A stretch of 64,000 bases of DNA, taken from Acidobacteriota bacterium (GTDB lineage: Bacteria > Acidobacteriota > Thermoanaerobaculia > UBA5066 > Gp7-AA6). Both the position numbers and the translations under genes were made by a program. This document shows, in pieces, positions 7,352-16,969 of this stretch (positions are counted from its first letter, which is position 1; the number at the start of each line of letters is the position of its first letter). The notes beneath the pieces are model-generated. The model was not told where the DNA came from. It saw only the letters and a program-made list of their open reading frames with translations, and made no database searches. The stretch lies in assembly GCA_020199905.1 (NCBI GenBank), contig JAIVJS010000013.1, positions 1 through 64,000 of the forward strand, read 5' to 3'.

Positions 7352-10300
7352 GTGCTCGTCGGGCTTCTCGTCTCCTTCGCTCTCCTCCTCGCGACTCCGG
7401 CGCCTTCCGACGCCGATGCGGCGCGGCTCGAATCGGAGAAAAATGTCGGCCTCGCGAGCCTCGAAGAGGGCGACCTTCCCCAGGCGAAGGCGCGTTTTGA
7501 CTCGCTCCGGCGCCTCGCAGCCGCGGAGCCTCTCGGGTGGGCGAACGGCGCGGTCGCGGCCCTGCGCGCCAGGGACCCCGCCGCGGCGAAGGCTCTGATG
7601 GCCGAGGCCCTGCGCCTGGCGCCCGGCGACGCGCGCGTCCTCGCCCTGGAGGGCATCCGGGCGGAGGCGGCGGGCGAAACGGCGGCCGCAGTCGCGGCCT
7701 TCGAGAAGGCGGCCGCGGCGAATCCGCGCGATCTCCCGTCCCGCTGGAACGCCGCGCGTCTGCTCTCGGCGGGCGCGTCGGCCGATCCCGGCCGCGCGCG
7801 GCGGGCGATCGACGCCGCGCTCGGGCAGGCGCCCGGGAATCTGTTCCTTCTCGTGCGGTCGATCGACCTCGAACGCGAGTCCGGCGACAGCGCCCGGGCG
7901 CTGGCCGCCCTCGATCGCCTCGCGCCCCTTCTGGAGAACCGGGAGGCGCGCCTCGACCGCGCCGTTGCCGAGGCGAAGGCGGCGCTCGAGTCGGGCGACC
8001 GCGCGGCGGCCGGGATCAAGGTGCGCCTTCTCGAGAACCTGCTGCGGGGTCTTCCGCGCTATCAGCAGGCGAGGCACGAGGTGGATCCCGGAGTCCTCGG
8101 GATTCCCCTGGAAGACTTCTCGCCGGAGCTCGCCTCCCGCCTCCGCGCGCGGCCGAAGCCGATCCCCGTCCGCTTCGCCGAGAAGCGGCTCCCGGGCCTC
8201 TCCGCTCTGAAGGGAGTCTCGGCCGTCCGCGCCGCGGGAAAGGATGCCCGAGACCTGGCCTTCCTCACGGGCGGCGGGATCGTCCTCGCGGCCGCGCGGG
8301 AGGGGTACCGCTCCGGCGCCGCGCTCCCGGGATCCGGCGGGGCGCTCGATCTCGCCGTCGCGGACGTCCAGAACTCGGGCGCGCTCGACCTCGCTACGCC
8401 CGGAGCGCTGTGGAGCGCGGACAAGGCCGCGTTCCGGCGGGTCCCGATCGCCGCGGGGGAGCGGATCCTGCCGATCGACTACGACTCGGACGGCGACCTC
8501 GACCTGTACGTGTGCGCCGCCCGCGGAGACCACCTCCTTCGCAACAACCTCGATCAGACGTGGACGGACGCCGGCGCGGGGCTGCCGGCCGGCACCGCCT
8601 CGCGGGTTGCCGCCGTCGCCGACTTCGACCGCGATGGAGACCCCGACATCGTCATCGCGCGCGCGGCCGGGGGGCTGGCTCTCCTCGACAACCTCCGCGG
8701 CGGCCGCTTCGGCGAGCGCGAGGCGGGCCTGCCGCGCTCGGGAGCAATCCTGGCGCTCGCCTCCGGGGACCTGAACGCGGACGGGCGCCCCGATCTGGTC
8801 TGGACGACCGAGACGGCGGCCTGGGTGGCGCTGAACCGGGGCGACGGCACTTTTCTCCCGGCGCGGGAGATCCCGGCCGGCGGACGAGCCCTGCTGTTCG
8901 ATTTCGACAACGACGGGGCTCTCGATCTCTTCCTCTCCTCGAAGCGCGGTTCCGGTCTCTTTCGCAACGACGGGGCGGGCGCATTCCATCGGGTGGAAGG
9001 GAATTTTCCTCCCGCGATCGATGCCGAGGCCGTCGACGCCGACGGGGATGGGGACCTCGACCTCGCGCTCGTCACCCCGGAAGGCGGGGCGATCCTGCTG
9101 GAGAACGACGGAGGCAACTCCAACGCCTGGATCGACGTCGCGCTCGAGGGCCTTCCGACGGGGTCCGCGAAAGTGAACCGGCTCGGGTTCGGCTCCGAGA
9201 TCGAGATCAAGGCGGGGACGCTCTACGCGTTCCGAACGGCCGCCCGCGCGGTGACGCGGATCGGACTCGGCGGGGCCCGGAGGCCGGACGTCCTCCGCGT
9301 GGTCTGGACGAATGGGGTCCCGCAGAACGCGCTCGCGCCGGCGGCGAAGACCGTGGTCCGGGAAGTCCAGCAGCTGAAGGGCTCGTGCCCGTTCGTTTAT
9401 GCGTTCGACGGGAAGCGGTGGAGCTTCGTGACCCGCTGACTCCGAGGGCGACCGACGAGGCCGGGCGCGACCGCACGGACGAGATCGCGCGCCAGGACGG
9501 GCGGCATCTCGCGGGCTTCGCGCCCACCCGCTACCAGGGAATCGTCGCCCCGCACGACCTCCTGCTCGAGTTGCCGGCGGCCCGGCAGGCGCGGACCGTG
9601 ATGCTGTACCTGACGGGCTGGATCTTCTACGCCGATACGTCGATCAACGTGTCGGTGTCGCAGGGAGGCGGGGTCCGGCCGGCCGGTCCCGAGCTTCAGA
9701 TTCCCGACGGCCGGGGCGGATGGAAGACGGCGATTGCCGCGATGGGCTATCCCGCGGGGAAGACCAAGACGATGCCGGTGGACCTCTCGTCAGTCCTCGA
9801 CCGCCGCGATCCGCGCGTGCGCATCCGCACCAATCTGGCGATCTACTGGGACCGCATCGCGTACACGGTCGACGACGCGCCCGCGCCGACGCGGCGGACG
9901 GAGGCGCCGCTGCTCCGCGCCGATCTTTCCTTCCGCGGCTTCTCGCGGATGACGCGCGAGACGCCCGACGGGCCGCAGGTTTTCGTGCACGACGACGTCG
10001 AGAAGACGCCGCGCTGGGCGGACATGGTCGGGATGTACACGCGGTTCGGCGACGTGCGCGCGCTGCTGGAGGCGGCAGATGACCGGTACGTCGTGCTGAA
10101 AAGCGGCGACGCGGTCCGGCTCGAGTTCGACGCTCGCGCGATTCCGCCGCCGCCGGAGGGCTGGGTGCGCGACTGGCTCCTGGTCCTGGATGGATGGGAC
10201 AAGGACGCCGACAAAAACACGGTCGCCGGACAGACGGTGGAGCCGCTTCCGTTCCACGGCATGGACGACGGCCTCTACGGAACCGCTCAGGCGCCCGCGG

Positions 10301-10416
10301 ATTCGGAGGGGATGCGGCGCTTCCGGGATCAGTGGCTGACGCGTCCGGGCGGGCCGGACGAGTTCCGGGACTCGGTTCGCCTTCGTTCCGTAGCGGAAAA
10401 GGGAGGAGGTCGGTGA
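7352..10416 (+). pseudogene. TPR plus FG-GAP/VCBS (CRTAC1-type) protein, apparently disrupted by a frame change and missing segment at about 9430
   Basis: First frame ends ...SCPFVYAFDGKRWSFVTR* at 9439; homologous continuation (PRATDEAGRDRTDEIARQDGRHLAGFAPTRYQGI...WIFYADTSINVSV) is in another frame to 10416. Confidence 0.7.
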
Positions 10417-12149
10417 AAGGGTTTCTCCTGGCGGCGGCCGCCTTTCTCGCGGTGGGGTTCATCCTCGCGGCCGCGCCGGGCGGACCGGCCGAGCCCGTCT
10501 TCCGCGACGTCACCCGCTCGTCCGGCATCGACTTCCGCGTCTCCGCCGACATGCGGCGGCTGAAGATGATCGCCACCATGATCGGCGGCTGCGCCTTCGG
10601 CGATTACGACGGGGACGGGCTACCCGATCTCTACGTCACCGGCTCGATTCCGCACTGGGGCAAGCCGAACGAGGCTTCCTGCGGCCGGCTCTACCGCAAC
10701 CTTGGCGGCGGCCGTTTCGAAGACGCGACCGCCCGCTCGGGCATCCATGCGTGCGGCCTCGGGATGGGCGCTTACTGGGCGGACCTGGACGGCGACGGCC
10801 GGCTCGACCTCTACCTCACGAACGTGGGCCCCAACACGGTCTACTGGAACCGGGGCGACGGAACCTTCGAAGAGGGAAAGTCGACCGGCCTCGAAGACCC
10901 TCTCTTTTCGATCGGAGCCGCGTTCGTCGACTACGACGGGGACGGCCGGCTGGACGTCGTCGTCGGCAACTATCTCGATTCGACGCCCGAGTGGGAAGCG
11001 GCTCAGCCGCAGTTTCAGCTGAGGGTTCCCGAGGACTACCGCGGGCAGCCCTCGCACCTGTATCGCAACGAGGGGGACCGGCATTTCCGGGACGTGACCG
11101 CCGCCGCCGGGCTCGCGATGAATCCGGAGGAGACCAAGACGCTCGGCATCGCCGTGCTCGACTACGACGGCGACGGGCTTCCCGACCTTTTCTTCGTGAA
11201 CGACCGTGTGTCCAACCGGCTCTTCCGGAACAAGGGCAACGGCACGTTCGAGGAGACGACCGCCGAAACGGGTGCCGGGATCCTCGGGCCGCGGCCCCGC
11301 GCGGGGATGGGCGTCGCCGTCGGCGATCCGTTCGGCGCGGGGCGCCCGAGTCTCTTCGTTACGAATTTCGGGGGCGAGCCCAACAGCCTTTACCGGAACG
11401 TCGAAGGCGCTCTCTTCGAGGATGCGGGCGCCGCGGCGGGGGCCGCGGGGATCGGCGAGCCCTTCGTGCGCTGGGGCACCCACTTCGCGGATTTCGACAA
11501 CGACGGGTGGCCCGACCTCTACGCCGTCGGCGGTCACCTCGCTCCGAAGATCGTTCGCAGCGTGGGGCATTACAAGAGCGGCAAGGCGAAATACGTCGAG
11601 GCGGGGGATTCCGCCTACACGCAGAAGGCGGTGCTGCTGAAAAATCTCGGCGGCGGAAAGTTCGAGGAGTGGGCGGCGTCCGGCGATCTCGGGCGGCTGA
11701 AGATGGCGGCCCGCGGCAGCGCGGTCGCCGACGTCGACGGCGACGGCGATCTCGACCTGTTCGTCATGGATCTGGCGGGGCCCTCGAGGCTGTTCGAGAA
11801 CGTGGTGGGCAGCCGCCACTCATGGGTGCGAATCGAGCCTCGGGTGAGCCGCGATGGCCGGCCGGTCCTCGGCACGAAAGTGCGCGTCACGGCGGGCGGG
11901 CGATCGTCGACGCGGGAGTTCTACCCGTCGCCCTCCTATGCGTCGGGCTCGCTGACCGATCTGCATTTCGGGCTCGGCGCCGCGGAAGTGGTGGACGAGA
12001 TCGAGATCACGTGGCCGGGCGGAGAAAAACAGAAGCTCACGGGAATCCCGGCGCGAAAGGTCTATCGGATCGAAAAGGGCCGTCCCCCGGTGGCGCTGGC
12101 TCTTCCGGCGTCTCCGGGCCCGGCCCGTTCCGCGCCGCCGCCGCGGTGA
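10413..12149 (+). CDS. CRTAC1-family FG-GAP/VCBS repeat protein with ASPIC/UnbV domain, secreted
   Basis: Repeated DxDGDGxxDL blades; C-terminal ASPIC-like GLGAAEVVDEIEITWPGGEKQKL; GTG start overlapping upstream stop (GTGA). Confidence 0.88.
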   Translation: MKGFLLAAAAFLAVGFILAAAPGGPAEPVFRDVTRSSGIDFRVSADMRRLKMIATMIGGCAFGDYDGDGLPDLYVTGSIPHWGKPNEASCGRLYRNLGGGRFEDATARSGIHACGLGMGAYWADLDGDGRLDLYLTNVGPNTVYWNRGDGTFEEGKSTGLEDPLFSIGAAFVDYDGDGRLDVVVGNYLDSTPEWEAAQPQFQLRVPEDYRGQPSHLYRNEGDRHFRDVTAAAGLAMNPEETKTLGIAVLDYDGDGLPDLFFVNDRVSNRLFRNKGNGTFEETTAETGAGILGPRPRAGMGVAVGDPFGAGRPSLFVTNFGGEPNSLYRNVEGALFEDAGAAAGAAGIGEPFVRWGTHFADFDNDGWPDLYAVGGHLAPKIVRSVGHYKSGKAKYVEAGDSAYTQKAVLLKNLGGGKFEEWAASGDLGRLKMAARGSAVADVDGDGDLDLFVMDLAGPSRLFENVVGSRHSWVRIEPRVSRDGRPVLGTKVRVTAGGRSSTREFYPSPSYASGSLTDLHFGLGAAEVVDEIEITWPGGEKQKLTGIPARKVYRIEKGRPPVALALPASPGPARSAPPPR

Positions 12150-12164
12150 AGGGATTCGGGGCGC

Positions 12165-13910
12165 TCAGCGGGGCGGGGACGGCGCGGGCGCCGCGCCGGA
12201 ACCCTCCGTGACGGTCCGGAGGGTTCCGCCGGCCAGGGTGCCCAGGGTCTCCCGGCGCCCGTCGGGCCAGCGGATCTCGAGGGAGTCGATACGGCGCGCT
12301 CCACCGAGCCCGAAGGTGAGCGTCTTCTCGGGCGCGGAAAGGTAGGACTCGCCGCCGCTGACCTGGGAGGTGAGACTGCGCGATCCGATGCGGGCGGTCA
12401 CGCGCGCTCCGATCGCATCCCGATTGGACCGGTCGGTCCCGACGAGCCGCACGCGCACGCTCTCGTCGGGACGGTCGAGCCGGTTCACGAATACCCGTGC
12501 CGGCCCACCGTTCTCGACGACGACGATGTCGAGGTCTCCGTCGCCGTCGAGGTCCGCGTAGACCGCACCGCGACCCACGATCGGCGTCGCGAGGTCGCCG
12601 CCCGTCGCCGCGGCGAACCGGTTGTCACCGAGGTTGCGGTAGAGGACCGGCGCCTGACGGTAGGTCACGGTCTTCTGGACCTCCTGCACGCTCGGCTCGA
12701 CGTGGCCGTTGGCGAGAAAGAGGTCGAGCCGGCCGTCGAGGTCCGCGTCGAAGAAGAAGAGGCCGAACGTGAGCGAGAGCAGCGAGCTCGATCCGACGCC
12801 GCTGCGCGGCGACTCGTCCAGGAAAACGTCCCCGGTCTCGGTCCAGTAGAGCGATTTAAGCTCGTTGGAAAAGTTTCCGACGGCGAGCGTGGCGCCCTTT
12901 CCGTTCCGGGTGTCTCCCCACGCCGCGCCCATCGACCCGCGCGACCGCCCCGCTTCATCGACCGCGACTCCGGCTTCCACCGCGACGTCTTCGAAGGTCC
13001 CGTCGCCTCGGTTCCGATAGAGGTTGTTCGGCGCGGTGTCGTTCGAGACGAAGAGGTCCGGCCTCCCGTCGCCGTTGACGTCCCAGGCGGCGGCGCCCAG
13101 GGCCTTCTGGTTTACGTTCCAGAGACCCGCCTTCCGGGTCACGTCTTCGAAACACCCGTTGCCCAGATTGCGGTAGAGGTGCGACGACGTGCCCGGGTAT
13201 CGCTCCGGGGTGCAGTACGACTTGGTCTTTCCGTCGAGTGTGCAGAAGAGGTCCGTCTTGGGCGACCAGTCCACGTACCGGCAGACGAAGAGGTCGAGCA
13301 GGCCGTCTCCGTCGTAGTCGAGCCAGACGGCGGACGTGCCCCACCCGGAATCTCGAACGCGGGCCTTCCCCGAGACCTCTTCGAACCGGCCGCCGGCATT
13401 GTGAAAAAGGAAATTGCGGCCGACCGCGGTCACGTACACGTCCGGCCGGCCGTCATTGTCGTAGTCGCCGACGGCCGCCCCCATCCCCTGGAACGTTCTC
13501 CGGAGGCCGGCCTCCCGCGTCGCGTCCCGGAAGCGCGGGAGACCGTCGGGGCCGTTGCCCTCGTTGTGGTAAAGCGCGAGCGAGCTTTTCTGCGAGGCCG
13601 CGCGGGGATCTCCCGGCCACCAGGCGCCGGACACGAAGAGAAGGTCGGGCCGCCCGTCGCCGTCGTAGTCGAGAACGGCGACGCCGCCGCCCATCGTCTC
13701 CGGCATCCATTTCTGGCCCCGCGCCCCGTTGATGTGAACGAAGTCGATGCCGATCGCCTGCGCCTTCTCATCGAACCGGAGCGCCGCCGCGGGAGTGGGC
13801 TTCGCCGGCGGAGGTGCGGCGGCTCCCGGCTTTTCGGGGCGGCGGCAGGCCATCGCTCCCGCGAGCAGGGCAGCCGCCATCAGCAGAATCAAGCGATGTG
13901 GGCGCTTCAA
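12165..13910 (-). CDS. CRTAC1-family FG-GAP/VCBS lipoprotein with ASPIC/UnbV domain
   Basis: Lipobox-like LLAGAMAC; DYDGDGRPDLLFV repeats; FGLGGARRIDSLEIRWPDGRRETL. Confidence 0.9.
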   Translation of the reverse strand: MKRPHRLILLMAAALLAGAMACRRPEKPGAAAPPPAKPTPAAALRFDEKAQAIGIDFVHINGARGQKWMPETMGGGVAVLDYDGDGRPDLLFVSGAWWPGDPRAASQKSSLALYHNEGNGPDGLPRFRDATREAGLRRTFQGMGAAVGDYDNDGRPDVYVTAVGRNFLFHNAGGRFEEVSGKARVRDSGWGTSAVWLDYDGDGLLDLFVCRYVDWSPKTDLFCTLDGKTKSYCTPERYPGTSSHLYRNLGNGCFEDVTRKAGLWNVNQKALGAAAWDVNGDGRPDLFVSNDTAPNNLYRNRGDGTFEDVAVEAGVAVDEAGRSRGSMGAAWGDTRNGKGATLAVGNFSNELKSLYWTETGDVFLDESPRSGVGSSSLLSLTFGLFFFDADLDGRLDLFLANGHVEPSVQEVQKTVTYRQAPVLYRNLGDNRFAAATGGDLATPIVGRGAVYADLDGDGDLDIVVVENGGPARVFVNRLDRPDESVRVRLVGTDRSNRDAIGARVTARIGSRSLTSQVSGGESYLSAPEKTLTFGLGGARRIDSLEIRWPDGRRETLGTLAGGTLRTVTEGSGAAPAPSPPR

Positions 13911-13914
13911 AGGG

Positions 13915-13963
13915 TCAGCTGCCGGGTCTCAGCTGTCAGCTCTCATGCGCTGGGCGCTGGGCG
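13915..13963. repeat. 7-bp degenerate tandem repeat (TCAGCTG / CTGGGCG)
   Basis: tcagctg ccgggtc tcagctg tcagctc tcatgcg ctgggcg ctgggcg. Confidence 0.85.
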
Positions 13964-14010
13964 AAAAGACTGGGAACGCAGGGGACGCCCAAAATTTTTC
14001 TTTCGATTCC

Positions 14011-14070
14011 CGATCTAGTTGACCGCGGAGTACCGCGGCCGTCTCGCTCCCGTTGGTCGCTCGGCTCCCG
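14011..14070 (+). repeat. 60-bp dispersed element, copy 1
   Basis: cgatctagttgaccgcggagtaccgcggccgtctcgctcccgttggtcgctcggctcccg; near-identical copies at 27639, 27697, 36042 (-) and 55921. Confidence 0.95.
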
Positions 14071-14083
14071 TTTCCCGTTTCCC

Positions 14084-16816
14084 TCACGGCGCCGACCGTC
14101 GCGCGGGCAGCGCGGGCGCTCCTCCGCGCGCCGTCCGGTCCGGAGCATCTCGAAGAATCGGCGGGTGGGCGCGCGTCAGATATCCCCCGTCCGTCTGATA
14201 GCCCTTTCTCCCCATTTCCGCGACCCAGGCGGGCACCGCCGCTTCGGGCGGCTCGGACTCCTCGTGCACGTGGATCGGAAGCGACTCCCGGTTCGCCCAC
14301 GGGTTGGCGCGCCGGAAGTCCGCGGCGACGGCGCGCCCCGTCTCGTCCTCCTTGAACTTCCGGTACTCGCGCTCGTGGAAGGCCGCCCGCCCGCGGTCTC
14401 CCTGCGCGCGGTAGATTCGCATCAGGTTGTAGTGGGCGTTCACGTCCTCGGAGTCGATCGCGAGGGTCTTCCCGTAGGCCTCCGCCGCGTCAGGGTAGCG
14501 GCCCGCGAGCCAGAGGACCGAGCCCAGGTTGTTCCACGCGACCCGGTCGAGGGGGAATTTCGCCAGGACCGTCCGAAGGTCCCGCTCCGCCTCGGGAAGC
14601 CGTCCTTCGTCCTTCTCGAGCGTCGCCCGGAAGAACGCGGTCTTGGGCCAGCCCGGGCGGATCTTCTCGGAGAGGCCGAGAGACGCGCGCGCATCCGCCA
14701 GGCGGCCTTCGGCGATCTCGGCGCGCGCGCGATTCAAGGGACCGTCGGGCTTGTCGGGGGCGAGCTCCGCGACGCGCGTCCATGCTCGGGCGGCGCCGCG
14801 ATAGTCGCCCTGGAGAAAGAGGCCGATGCCGTAGTCGTTCCAGCGCTGCCAGAGCTTGTCCGGGTTGCCGCGCGGCGTCCCGCCGGCCGGGACCTCGCCG
14901 GCCGCGACCGGAATCCGCACGGTGTCGCTCGCGAGCGTCGTGACGGGCAGCGAAGGGTGAGCGGCGCCGAGCGAGAAGGTCGTGTAATCACGGGAGAACT
15001 TCCGATAGTGGGCGCCGGCCGACAGCTCGACGAAGCGGCGGGCGTCCTCGGGGACCCTCATCCGATAGTGCACGACGCGGGCGGCGCCGGGCCCGATCCC
15101 GTTGTTGTAGAGGGTGACGTGGATGTCCTCGGGCTGACGGCGGTCCATGTGGCCTCCGCCGTGATCGATCACGACCTGGGACAGGCGGTCCGCGGCGGGG
15201 TCCACGCGCCCGGACGCGTCGAGCACGCCGGATCGGAAGAAAGCCGTGCCGCCGGACCGGCCTTCGAGTGAGACCCATGTCTCGTTCGAGTCCGCCGTCC
15301 CGTTGGTATAGGGGTGGCCGACCCCGCGCGTGCGAACGACGGCCTCGATCTCCAGAGTCTCCCCCGGCCTGACGCGGATCGGGTCCGCCCCGAGAACCAG
15401 CCTCTCCTCCCCGCGGCGGATCGCGAAGAGATCCACGGTCAGCACTTTGTTCTGAAGGAACTCGCGGATCTTCTGCTCCGTCTGGCGATCGCCCCGGATG
15501 AACGGCAGGGCCGTGTTCGCCGCGGGAAAGAGGTGGTCGTGGAGCTGTCCGTTTTTGTTTCCGAACTCATCCGACCGGTAGGGCGGGAGGTGGCAGTCCC
15601 GGCACGCCCTGGCCGCCGGCGGATCGTAGAAGGAGCGCACGGCGCGCCCCGAGACGCCCGAGTCGTACCAGCTGTCGTAGTGGTTCTGCCCCCGCATCCA
15701 CCGGTAGGAGTTCAACGCCGGGATCAAGGCCACCTTGTGGCAGCTCGAACAGAACTCCGGGGTCCTCATGACGGGCTTCAAGAACGTCTTGCGGTGGAGC
15801 GAGGGCTCCATCCGGATGAGCAGCTGGTTCACCGCCTGCAGCGTCTTGTTTTTCGAGAACGCGAACGGATACTGCTTGGACTCTTCGATGACGTACGAAC
15901 CGTTGCCCTTCACGTCCTTCACTTCGGTGATCGAGTGGCAGGACATGCACGTCAGGCCCTGCTGCGCCTCCCACGAGTCGTAGGAGAACTTCGCCTGCGT
16001 GGCGGCGCCCATCTGCCCGGTGAAAAGCACGACCGGATCGTGGCACCCCGAGCACCACTTGGTGCGCTCGCGCCCGACGCGGTCCGCCATCAGCTCGACG
16101 CTCTTCCGGTAGAAGGGATTGTTGAAGGACGAGAAGCGGTGCGCCGACCGCTCCCACTGGTGAAACGAGTCCGGATGGCACGACTTGCAGTAGTCGTTGG
16201 CGGCCAGCTTCTTCCCGTCGAGAAGCCCCTGGTCGAAGGTCTCGGAAGAGGCGGGGAAGAAGACGGTGTCGCCGTTCCGGTTCACGATCCGCTTCGGCGG
16301 TTTCTCGAGATGCGCGACGACCGCCATGGCGGCCAGAAACGCGGCGACCGCGCCGCCCCAGGCGAACAGCCGTTTGAACTGCAGTTTGTGAACTGCGGCG
16401 CGGCGGTGAAGGATGAACGCCACCAGGGCCAGGGGAACCGACAGCACGTGCGCGAGCCAGATCGCCCGGTTGTTGAGCGTCGCCCCCTTGAACGTCATGA
16501 AGACGCCGGACGCCACGCAGACCGTCGCCAGCGCGAAGATCGAGAGGCCCGCGTACTTCGCGCGCTTGTTCCACATCCGGATCATCCGGCGCGCGTGGGT
16601 CACCGCGAAGACGAAGAACGGGATCGCGACGAGCACGCCGAGCACGAGGTGGAGAAGGAGCATCGCGTAGAAGAACGACGTGTCGCGCGTGAACGCGAAG
16701 AGGTAGATCGCGTTGGCCGCGATGAGACCGAGAGGGATGAGAAGCAGCCGGTAGAGAAGCCTCTGCCAGGGCCGCAGAACCCCGGAGGGCTTCGAAACCG
16801 GAGCTCCTTCCGCCAT
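14084..16816 (-). CDS. Membrane-anchored pentaheme c-type cytochrome with C-terminal TPR repeats
   Basis: Several N-terminal TM helices; CKSCH, CSGCH, CMSCH, CSSCH, CRDCH; C-terminal TPR (AWNNLGSVLWLAGRYPDAAEAYGKTLAID). Confidence 0.88.
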   Translation of the reverse strand: MAEGAPVSKPSGVLRPWQRLLYRLLLIPLGLIAANAIYLFAFTRDTSFFYAMLLLHLVLGVLVAIPFFVFAVTHARRMIRMWNKRAKYAGLSIFALATVCVASGVFMTFKGATLNNRAIWLAHVLSVPLALVAFILHRRAAVHKLQFKRLFAWGGAVAAFLAAMAVVAHLEKPPKRIVNRNGDTVFFPASSETFDQGLLDGKKLAANDYCKSCHPDSFHQWERSAHRFSSFNNPFYRKSVELMADRVGRERTKWCSGCHDPVVLFTGQMGAATQAKFSYDSWEAQQGLTCMSCHSITEVKDVKGNGSYVIEESKQYPFAFSKNKTLQAVNQLLIRMEPSLHRKTFLKPVMRTPEFCSSCHKVALIPALNSYRWMRGQNHYDSWYDSGVSGRAVRSFYDPPAARACRDCHLPPYRSDEFGNKNGQLHDHLFPAANTALPFIRGDRQTEQKIREFLQNKVLTVDLFAIRRGEERLVLGADPIRVRPGETLEIEAVVRTRGVGHPYTNGTADSNETWVSLEGRSGGTAFFRSGVLDASGRVDPAADRLSQVVIDHGGGHMDRRQPEDIHVTLYNNGIGPGAARVVHYRMRVPEDARRFVELSAGAHYRKFSRDYTTFSLGAAHPSLPVTTLASDTVRIPVAAGEVPAGGTPRGNPDKLWQRWNDYGIGLFLQGDYRGAARAWTRVAELAPDKPDGPLNRARAEIAEGRLADARASLGLSEKIRPGWPKTAFFRATLEKDEGRLPEAERDLRTVLAKFPLDRVAWNNLGSVLWLAGRYPDAAEAYGKTLAIDSEDVNAHYNLMRIYRAQGDRGRAAFHEREYRKFKEDETGRAVAADFRRANPWANRESLPIHVHEESEPPEAAVPAWVAEMGRKGYQTDGGYLTRAHPPILRDAPDRTARGGAPALPARRSAP

Positions 16817-16941
16817 TGCGGCGGATTTTATCGAAGCCGAGGCCTGTCAGGTCCAGAGAATCGAGCCGCCAGCACGGGACCGCACACAGACGCCGGGCGG
16901 CGTCGCGGAGCCGGACTGAAAAAACGAGAACCGGGAATCGA

Positions 16942-16969
16942 GAGCCGACAGCTGACAGCCGACGGCTAG
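16942..16969. repeat. 7-bp tandem repeat (AGCYGAC) x4
   Basis: agccgac agctgac agccgac ggctaga; contains the stop codon of the S8 peptidase. Confidence 0.85.

Follow-up and report, generated by a model that had tools for sequence, protein, structure and literature searches.

A predicted diheme b/pentaheme c cytochrome fused to TPRs and paired with an FG-GAP/UnbV propeller gene in three bacterial phyla

Introduction

What is the role of a single polypeptide that joins a histidine-rich membrane domain, five c-type heme motifs and a TPR array, and does it work alone? The question is raised by the genome of a soil acidobacterium, in which one gene encodes such a protein, predicted to bind seven hemes and to carry electrons between membrane and periplasm. 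The gene lies within a stretch of 64,000 nucleotides (contig JAIVJS010000013.1, positions 1 to 64,000), hereafter referred to as the window. A first-pass annotation of this DNA suggested that the product is a self-contained conduit from quinone to periplasm, with heme b presumably bound in the membrane domain.

Each half of the protein has known analogues. CbcL of Geobacter sulfurreducens, as described in the available part of PMC9129911, joins a diheme b domain of six transmembrane (TM) helices to a part with nine c hemes. According to the available text of PMC11976967, the pentaheme proteins of cable bacteria, ExtKL and Gsu2801 form one family with an immunoglobulin-like domain (the PHC family), which structurally resembles cytochrome c552.

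Results

Domain order of the cytochrome

The features of the cytochrome gene and its neighbor are listed below, together with the evidence for each.

14084..16816, reverse strand: fused b/c cytochrome, 910 aa, ATG start (ORF list, Pfam, motifs, AlphaFold2)
16307..16771, reverse strand: five-helix TM domain, residues 16-170, predicted diheme b (AlphaFold2)
16649..16651, reverse strand: H56, TM2, predicted heme b ligand on the periplasm side, partner H123 (99/99)
16448..16450, reverse strand: H123, TM4, predicted heme b ligand on the periplasm side, partner H56 (99/99)
16595..16597, reverse strand: H74, TM2, predicted heme b ligand on the cytoplasm side, partner H137 (82/99)
16406..16408, reverse strand: H137, TM4, predicted heme b ligand on the cytoplasm side, partner H74 (82/99)
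15452..16219, reverse strand: pentaheme c-type domain, residues 200-455 (fold match 5ze8; PF13435)
16175..16189, reverse strand: heme motif 1, CKSCH, residue 210 (motif scan)
16040..16054, reverse strand: heme motif 2, CSGCH, residue 255 (motif scan)
15935..15949, reverse strand: heme motif 3, CMSCH, residue 290 (motif scan)
15737..15751, reverse strand: heme motif 4, CSSCH, residue 356 (motif scan)
15590..15604, reverse strand: heme motif 5, CRDCH, residue 405 (motif scan)
14897..15451, reverse strand: immunoglobulin-like beta domain, residues 456-640, part of the c552-type fold (AlphaFold2, fold match)
14372..14851, reverse strand: TPR array, residues about 656-815 (several TPR families above Pfam cut-offs)
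12165..13910, reverse strand: partner gene, FG-GAP/UnbV_ASPIC (CRTAC1-like) propeller, 581 aa (Pfam)

As read from the sequence and the predicted fold, the order along the chain is a five-TM domain, the pentaheme (PHC) domain, the Ig-like domain and the TPRs. The five CxxCH motifs and the C-terminal TPR array are present as first annotated, while the TM helices, previously put at roughly four, number five in the AlphaFold2 model (residues 16-41, 47-78, 84-110, 117-141 and 147-170). The model was computed with input alignments A1 and A2, of 82 and 88 sequences, and has a mean pLDDT of 84.3 over residues 1-640 and of 89.7 over residues 1-182. The intergenic segments on the two sides of the gene (13910-14084 and 16816-16966) both contain similar short repeats of the GACAGCTGAC/GTCGGCTGTCAGCTG type.

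Occurrence and conservation

A cytochrome match at E <= 1e-20 was detected in 28 genomes out of 60, among them the one that carries the window, and at least 581 relatives were confirmed in named genomes among 591 pattern-matched stretches. The best 80 of these at least 581 relatives belong to Acidobacteriota, Planctomycetota and Verrucomicrobiota, apart from one labelled Betaproteobacteria, and include two cultured hosts, Singulisphaera acidiphila DSM 18658 and Rhodopirellula sp. SM50; the closest named relative among them is from Acidobacteria gp7 (bin L031, 77%), which makes a gp7-like acidobacterium the probable source of the window. Bin labels such as 'Akkermansia' or 'Kuenenia' are those of the submitters and may be wrong.

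Two alignments were used for the systematic comparison. The full-length alignment of 99 rows, window protein included, represents 110 loci after removal of 4 duplicates and 7 partial proteins. The second set, for which 44 proteins were drawn on and 15 dropped as repeats of genomes already aligned or as a fragment, consists of 46 rows, of which 17 are shared with the full-length alignment, 21 are additional long proteins and 8 are short paralogues. One fragment row in this set is gapped past residue 294. All five C..CH sites were conserved in 99/99 full-length homologues, as were H56, G60, G104 and H123, and the combined pattern of five hemes and TM histidines is thus more than chance. Variant spacing (CX4CH or CX3CH) at these otherwise conserved sites was noted at heme 1 in L009 and L010 and at heme 5 in L034, L045 and L054.

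Two cross-helix histidine pairs in the membrane domain

The TM histidines quoted in the first-pass annotation are indeed present, 18 residues apart in TM2 (H56 and H74) and 14 apart in TM4 (H123 and H137), but the bis-His pairing within a single helix proposed there does not hold, as the pairs run from TM2 to TM4 (H56-H123 and H74-H137). In the AlphaFold2 helices, H56 of TM2 and H123 of TM4 are located close to the periplasm, whereas H74 of TM2 and H137 of TM4 are close to the cytoplasm. The same orientation of TM2 and TM4 was read from the helix order and from the positively charged loops ARRMIRMWNKRAK and HRRAAVHKLQFKR on the inner side. With the two helices parallel, H56 lies opposite H123 towards the periplasm, and H74 lies opposite H137 towards the cytoplasm. 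Two His pairs across helices make up the ligand scheme of cytochrome b, and we infer that heme b occupies the TM domain.

Lack of conservation of these histidines in homologues had been named as a reason to reject the heme b proposal; the opposite was found. The predicted periplasm-side pair H56/H123 is universal among the sampled members, with H56, G60 and H123 retained also in 46/46 rows of the second set. At positions 74 and 137, both residues are His in 82/99 rows and both are non-His in 17/99, with no mixed case (0/99). The 17 rows without the two histidines form one clade in a tree calculated without the TM columns (SH-aLRT 100, one change), so that the perfect co-loss represents a single event, which counts as one data point and not as statistical proof of coupling. 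Of the 21 further long rows, 6 have both histidines, 8 have none and 7 have a single one, the alignment at residue 137 being less certain among divergent rows. In contrast, all four TM histidines are kept in 8/8 short paralogues lacking TPRs. From the alignments, the cytoplasm-side pair H74/H137 looks ancestral and in decay in some Acidobacteriota.

These losses, complete or partial in one clade and in divergent members, indicate that the second b site is dispensable, and they could be taken to mean that a single b heme, held by H56-H123, is all that the domain ever carries. The protein would then be a monoheme-b anchor feeding the pentaheme domain, with H74 and H137 as interface residues near the positive loops, in keeping with their position beside Arg at the cytoplasmic edge in the window protein. 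We regard this as unlikely, because both histidines are retained in 82/99 rows and in all eight paralogues, and because the spacings of 18 and 14 residues place each same-helix His pair on one helix face. Moreover, four-His members occur among both the short and the long forms, and a diheme state is therefore likely to be ancestral. Conservation and predicted fold together give good support to a chain that combines a predicted diheme b domain with a pentaheme c domain, in line with the earlier proposal.

Fold of the membrane domain

The TM domain was searched against Pfam with the first A2 member and nine further member TM segments, and no family scored above its cut-off. PF01292 (Ni_hydr_CYTB, b561) gave weak matches at E<=1 in 6/88 members (best 0.0061), the window protein not among them, and DUF4405 was matched weakly in a few members. 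Sequence comparison of the domain with the PDB gave matches at chance level only. By Foldseek nothing was found below 1e-3, the best match being the NOX5 TM domain (E 0.15); the domain may have a fold outside the list of matches.

When the TM domain was compared by structure, diheme helical-bundle proteins ranked among the top matches. In VIA-align, the designed diheme bundle 4D2 gave Z 10.8 (104 aligned, 2.3 A), followed by b6 (Z about 10), superoxide oxidase 5oc0 (Z 10.0; 132 aligned, 3.5 A), the formate dehydrogenase b subunit 1kqf_C (9.6), SpNOX (9.6) and NOX5 (9.4). The caution level for helical bundles in this method is about 13, all Z values for the TM domain (9-11) are lower, and unrelated helical bundles score nearly as high as the diheme ones, so that the fold match counts as support and not as proof. 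The likeness to cyt b/b6, superoxide oxidase, formate dehydrogenase and NOX, which extends to paired His at two depths on two TM helices, is unaccompanied by significant similarity in sequence or in Foldseek.

The periplasmic half has a c552/ExtKL-type fold

Residues 200-635 matched cytochrome c552 of Thermochromatium tepidum (5ze8) with a Foldseek value of 1.3e-12, far above all other matches, and superimposed on it with Z 23.2 (337 aligned, rmsd 3.4 A). The same structure was found from sequence by profile (E 9.2e-6). By its predicted model, the periplasmic half is a member of the c552/ExtKL (PHC) fold family, in which five c hemes and an Ig-like domain are common to T. tepidum c552, Geobacter ExtKL/Gsu2801 and the sPHC/lPHC of cable bacteria. 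The PHC proteins in the available part of PMC11976967 carry signal peptides or hemoglobin domains, unlike the window protein, in which a five-TM His-rich domain is fused at the N-terminus and a TPR array at the C-terminus.

Among family models, Cytochrome_C554 (PF13435) scored 31.9 bits against a cut-off of 20.8, over residues 210-295 only, and PF22113 barely passed (31.0 against 30). Three assignments were rejected. The equivalog model for ExtKL (NCBIfam NF040886) gave 12.3 bits against a cut-off of 250, which makes this a PHC-fold protein and not ExtKL; decaheme OmcA/MtrC (TIGR03507) gave 16.1 bits against 209.3; and NapC/NirT (PF03264), a family suggested for comparison at first reading, gave 14.2 bits against 24.1. 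Maturation of c hemes is provided for in the genome by three Cytochrom_C_asm loci (CcmC/CcmF/CcsA-type), the absence of which had been considered an argument against the proposed cytochrome.

In the 46-row alignment, only H226, H341, H428 and H501 look like universal candidates for distal His ligands of the five c hemes, while residue 379 (H/E/D/Q) and residue 426 (H/R/K/F) vary. On this pattern, the ligation of one c heme may differ among members, and that heme could have a catalytic role. The protein might then be an enzyme rather than a wire, in which the open or variably ligated heme reduces a small substrate with electrons arriving through the b hemes; profile matches to MccA (E 0.25) and the selenoprotein MccSep (E 0.018) point in the same direction. 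Both matches are weak, however, and the ligands are assigned from an alignment. We consider an enzymatic role possible but doubtful.

A propeller gene accompanies the cytochrome gene

The next gene downstream of the cytochrome gene (12165-13910) is on the same strand after a gap of 173 b, and its product matches FG-GAP and UnbV_ASPIC over the Pfam cut-offs (142.5 and 65.4 bits). By eye, its N-terminus resembles a signal or lipoprotein sequence; other partner N-termini, inspected likewise in part of the loci, resemble either a lipoprotein signal or an anchor of one TM helix. We know of no assigned function for bacterial UnbV/CRTAC1-like propellers. Two neighboring frames in the window were also noted. 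A second UnbV/FG-GAP gene (10410-12149, forward strand) is convergent to the partner gene, which places two of the genome's four UnbV matches side by side. At 7352-10416 (forward strand), a TPR-FG-GAP ORF stops at 9439 and protein-like sequence continues in another forward frame to 10416, possibly reflecting a frameshift.

An UnbV/FG-GAP homologue lies directly downstream in 66/80 named loci. The contig ends too soon in 3/80, and 11/80 fail the adjacency rule, among them L054 and L087, which are probably misses of the rule since an overlapping open frame is present. In L032, other ORFs intervene and some 5 kb separate the cytochrome gene from the start of the downstream propeller gene. Ten of the genomes behind the named loci, chosen for comparison, contained 4-34 UnbV matches each, from which we estimate that adjacency by chance would be around or below 1% per locus. 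UnbV was found in 28/28 cytochrome-bearing genomes against 7/32 cytochrome-less ones, a comparison uncorrected for kinship. Clustering of ORFs in the 80 named loci gave no clear further family in more than 11 loci beyond cytochrome and propeller; clusters 1-3 (28 to 80 loci) were read as shadow frames of these two genes.

A shorter paralogue of about 700 aa (L028, L149-L151, L153-L156) keeps the TM histidines and the c-heme domain, and no TPR was detected by Pfam in the three proteins scanned. An UnbV propeller is the next gene on the same strand in 6/6 paralogue loci with extended flank, and in 5/6 of these the propeller itself bears a C-terminal TPR array (L157, L158, L159, L161 and L162, not L160). 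In contrast, TPR was found in 0/10 scanned propeller partners of the TPR-bearing cytochrome (those of the window, L031, L036, L037, L042, L053, L076, L085, L102 and L106). That a module is borne now by one protein and now by its partner is a classical sign of joint function, and cytochrome, propeller and TPRs are probably parts of one complex. The earlier description of the conduit as self-contained is doubtful, because the cytochrome gene has a conserved propeller partner, with the long form (66/80) and with the paralogue (6/6) alike.

The propeller gene could also be a neighbor of convenience, co-regulated with the cytochrome gene without contact between the products. In 7/28 cytochrome-bearing relatives the partner lies elsewhere than directly downstream, namely upstream in two (G004 and G006) and several kb downstream in five (G005, G007, G009, G013 and G021), and the distance in the latter fits such a loose association. 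Against it, the pairing recurs in three phyla and with both paralogues, and the TPR module switches between both proteins, which makes mere co-regulation a quite improbable explanation.

Discussion

With moderate confidence, we take the protein for a b/c cytochrome of the inner membrane that serves as a wire to or from the periplasm and is docked to the propeller via the TPRs. On the membrane side, its electrons would be exchanged probably with the quinone pool. They would cross the bilayer over a stack of two b hemes, one held by H74-H137 on the cytoplasm side and the other by H56-H123 on the periplasm side. The b hemes would connect to the pentaheme domain in the periplasm, which is of the c552/ExtKL (PHC) type, and this domain would dock through the TPR module with the membrane-attached FG-GAP/UnbV propeller, which most likely holds or presents a redox substrate or partner.

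The direction of flow may be considered separately, as the sequence sets none. In the reverse direction, the periplasmic partner would oxidise a substrate and the cytochrome would deliver the electrons to quinone, and the presence of three haem-copper oxidase matches in the genome means that such quinone reduction would be useful. In the available text of PMC11976967, however, the PHC relatives are discussed for electron export, and we think reverse flow improbable. Besides the three haem-copper oxidase matches, the genome contains one NrfD-type and one cytochrome-b-type match, so that the wire proposed here is probably an additional electron branch and not the sole route. Two other heme-rich regions were observed: G000:C101:4259-15523, with a haem-copper oxidase, an NrfD-type protein and five CxxCH, resembles an alternative complex III-oxidase cluster, and G000:C66:33490-37798 has eight CxxCH on one strand adjoining a cytochrome b match.

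In the available description of CbcL (PMC9129911), the likeness lies in the union of a diheme b domain in the membrane and a multiheme c domain in the periplasm within a single chain, placed between quinone and periplasm. The window protein differs in having its five TM helices placed first, five c hemes of PHC fold, TPRs and a propeller partner, and a CbcL-type architecture of six TM helices and nine c hemes was rejected on the count of five TM helices and five CxxCH. As for the propeller, the available part of PMC12758564 describes CRTAC1 genes flanking homologues of hydrazine-synthase alpha/beta-gamma with c554 domains. There, too, an FG-GAP CRTAC1-like gene is clustered with multiheme (c554-type) proteins, in Planctomycetota/Desulfobacterota, but the cytochromes are different, with neither a b domain nor a TPR exchange in that part of the text. 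The analogy suggests a wider bond between CRTAC1-like propellers and multiheme proteins.

In a search of open-access full text, a scope outside which most subscription journals and preprints lie, no description of the b/c-TPR fusion, the gene pair or the TPR exchange was found. The gene pair suggests that two proteins form an electron-transfer complex, as yet undescribed, in bacteria of three phyla. A more specific and still tentative possibility is a respiratory complex widespread in Acidobacteriota, Planctomycetota and Verrucomicrobiota, in which the diheme-b/pentaheme-c cytochrome would be the quinol dehydrogenase, the propeller the substrate-binding or catalytic subunit, and the TPRs a link that has moved from one subunit to the other in evolution.

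The family adds a TM domain for which there is no Pfam family, and cultured bacteria such as Singulisphaera acidiphila would likely possess an extra electron route between membrane and periplasm. If the proposed complex is true, UnbV/CRTAC1-like proteins of bacteria would gain a biochemical role, which the constant pairing and the TPR swap make directly testable.
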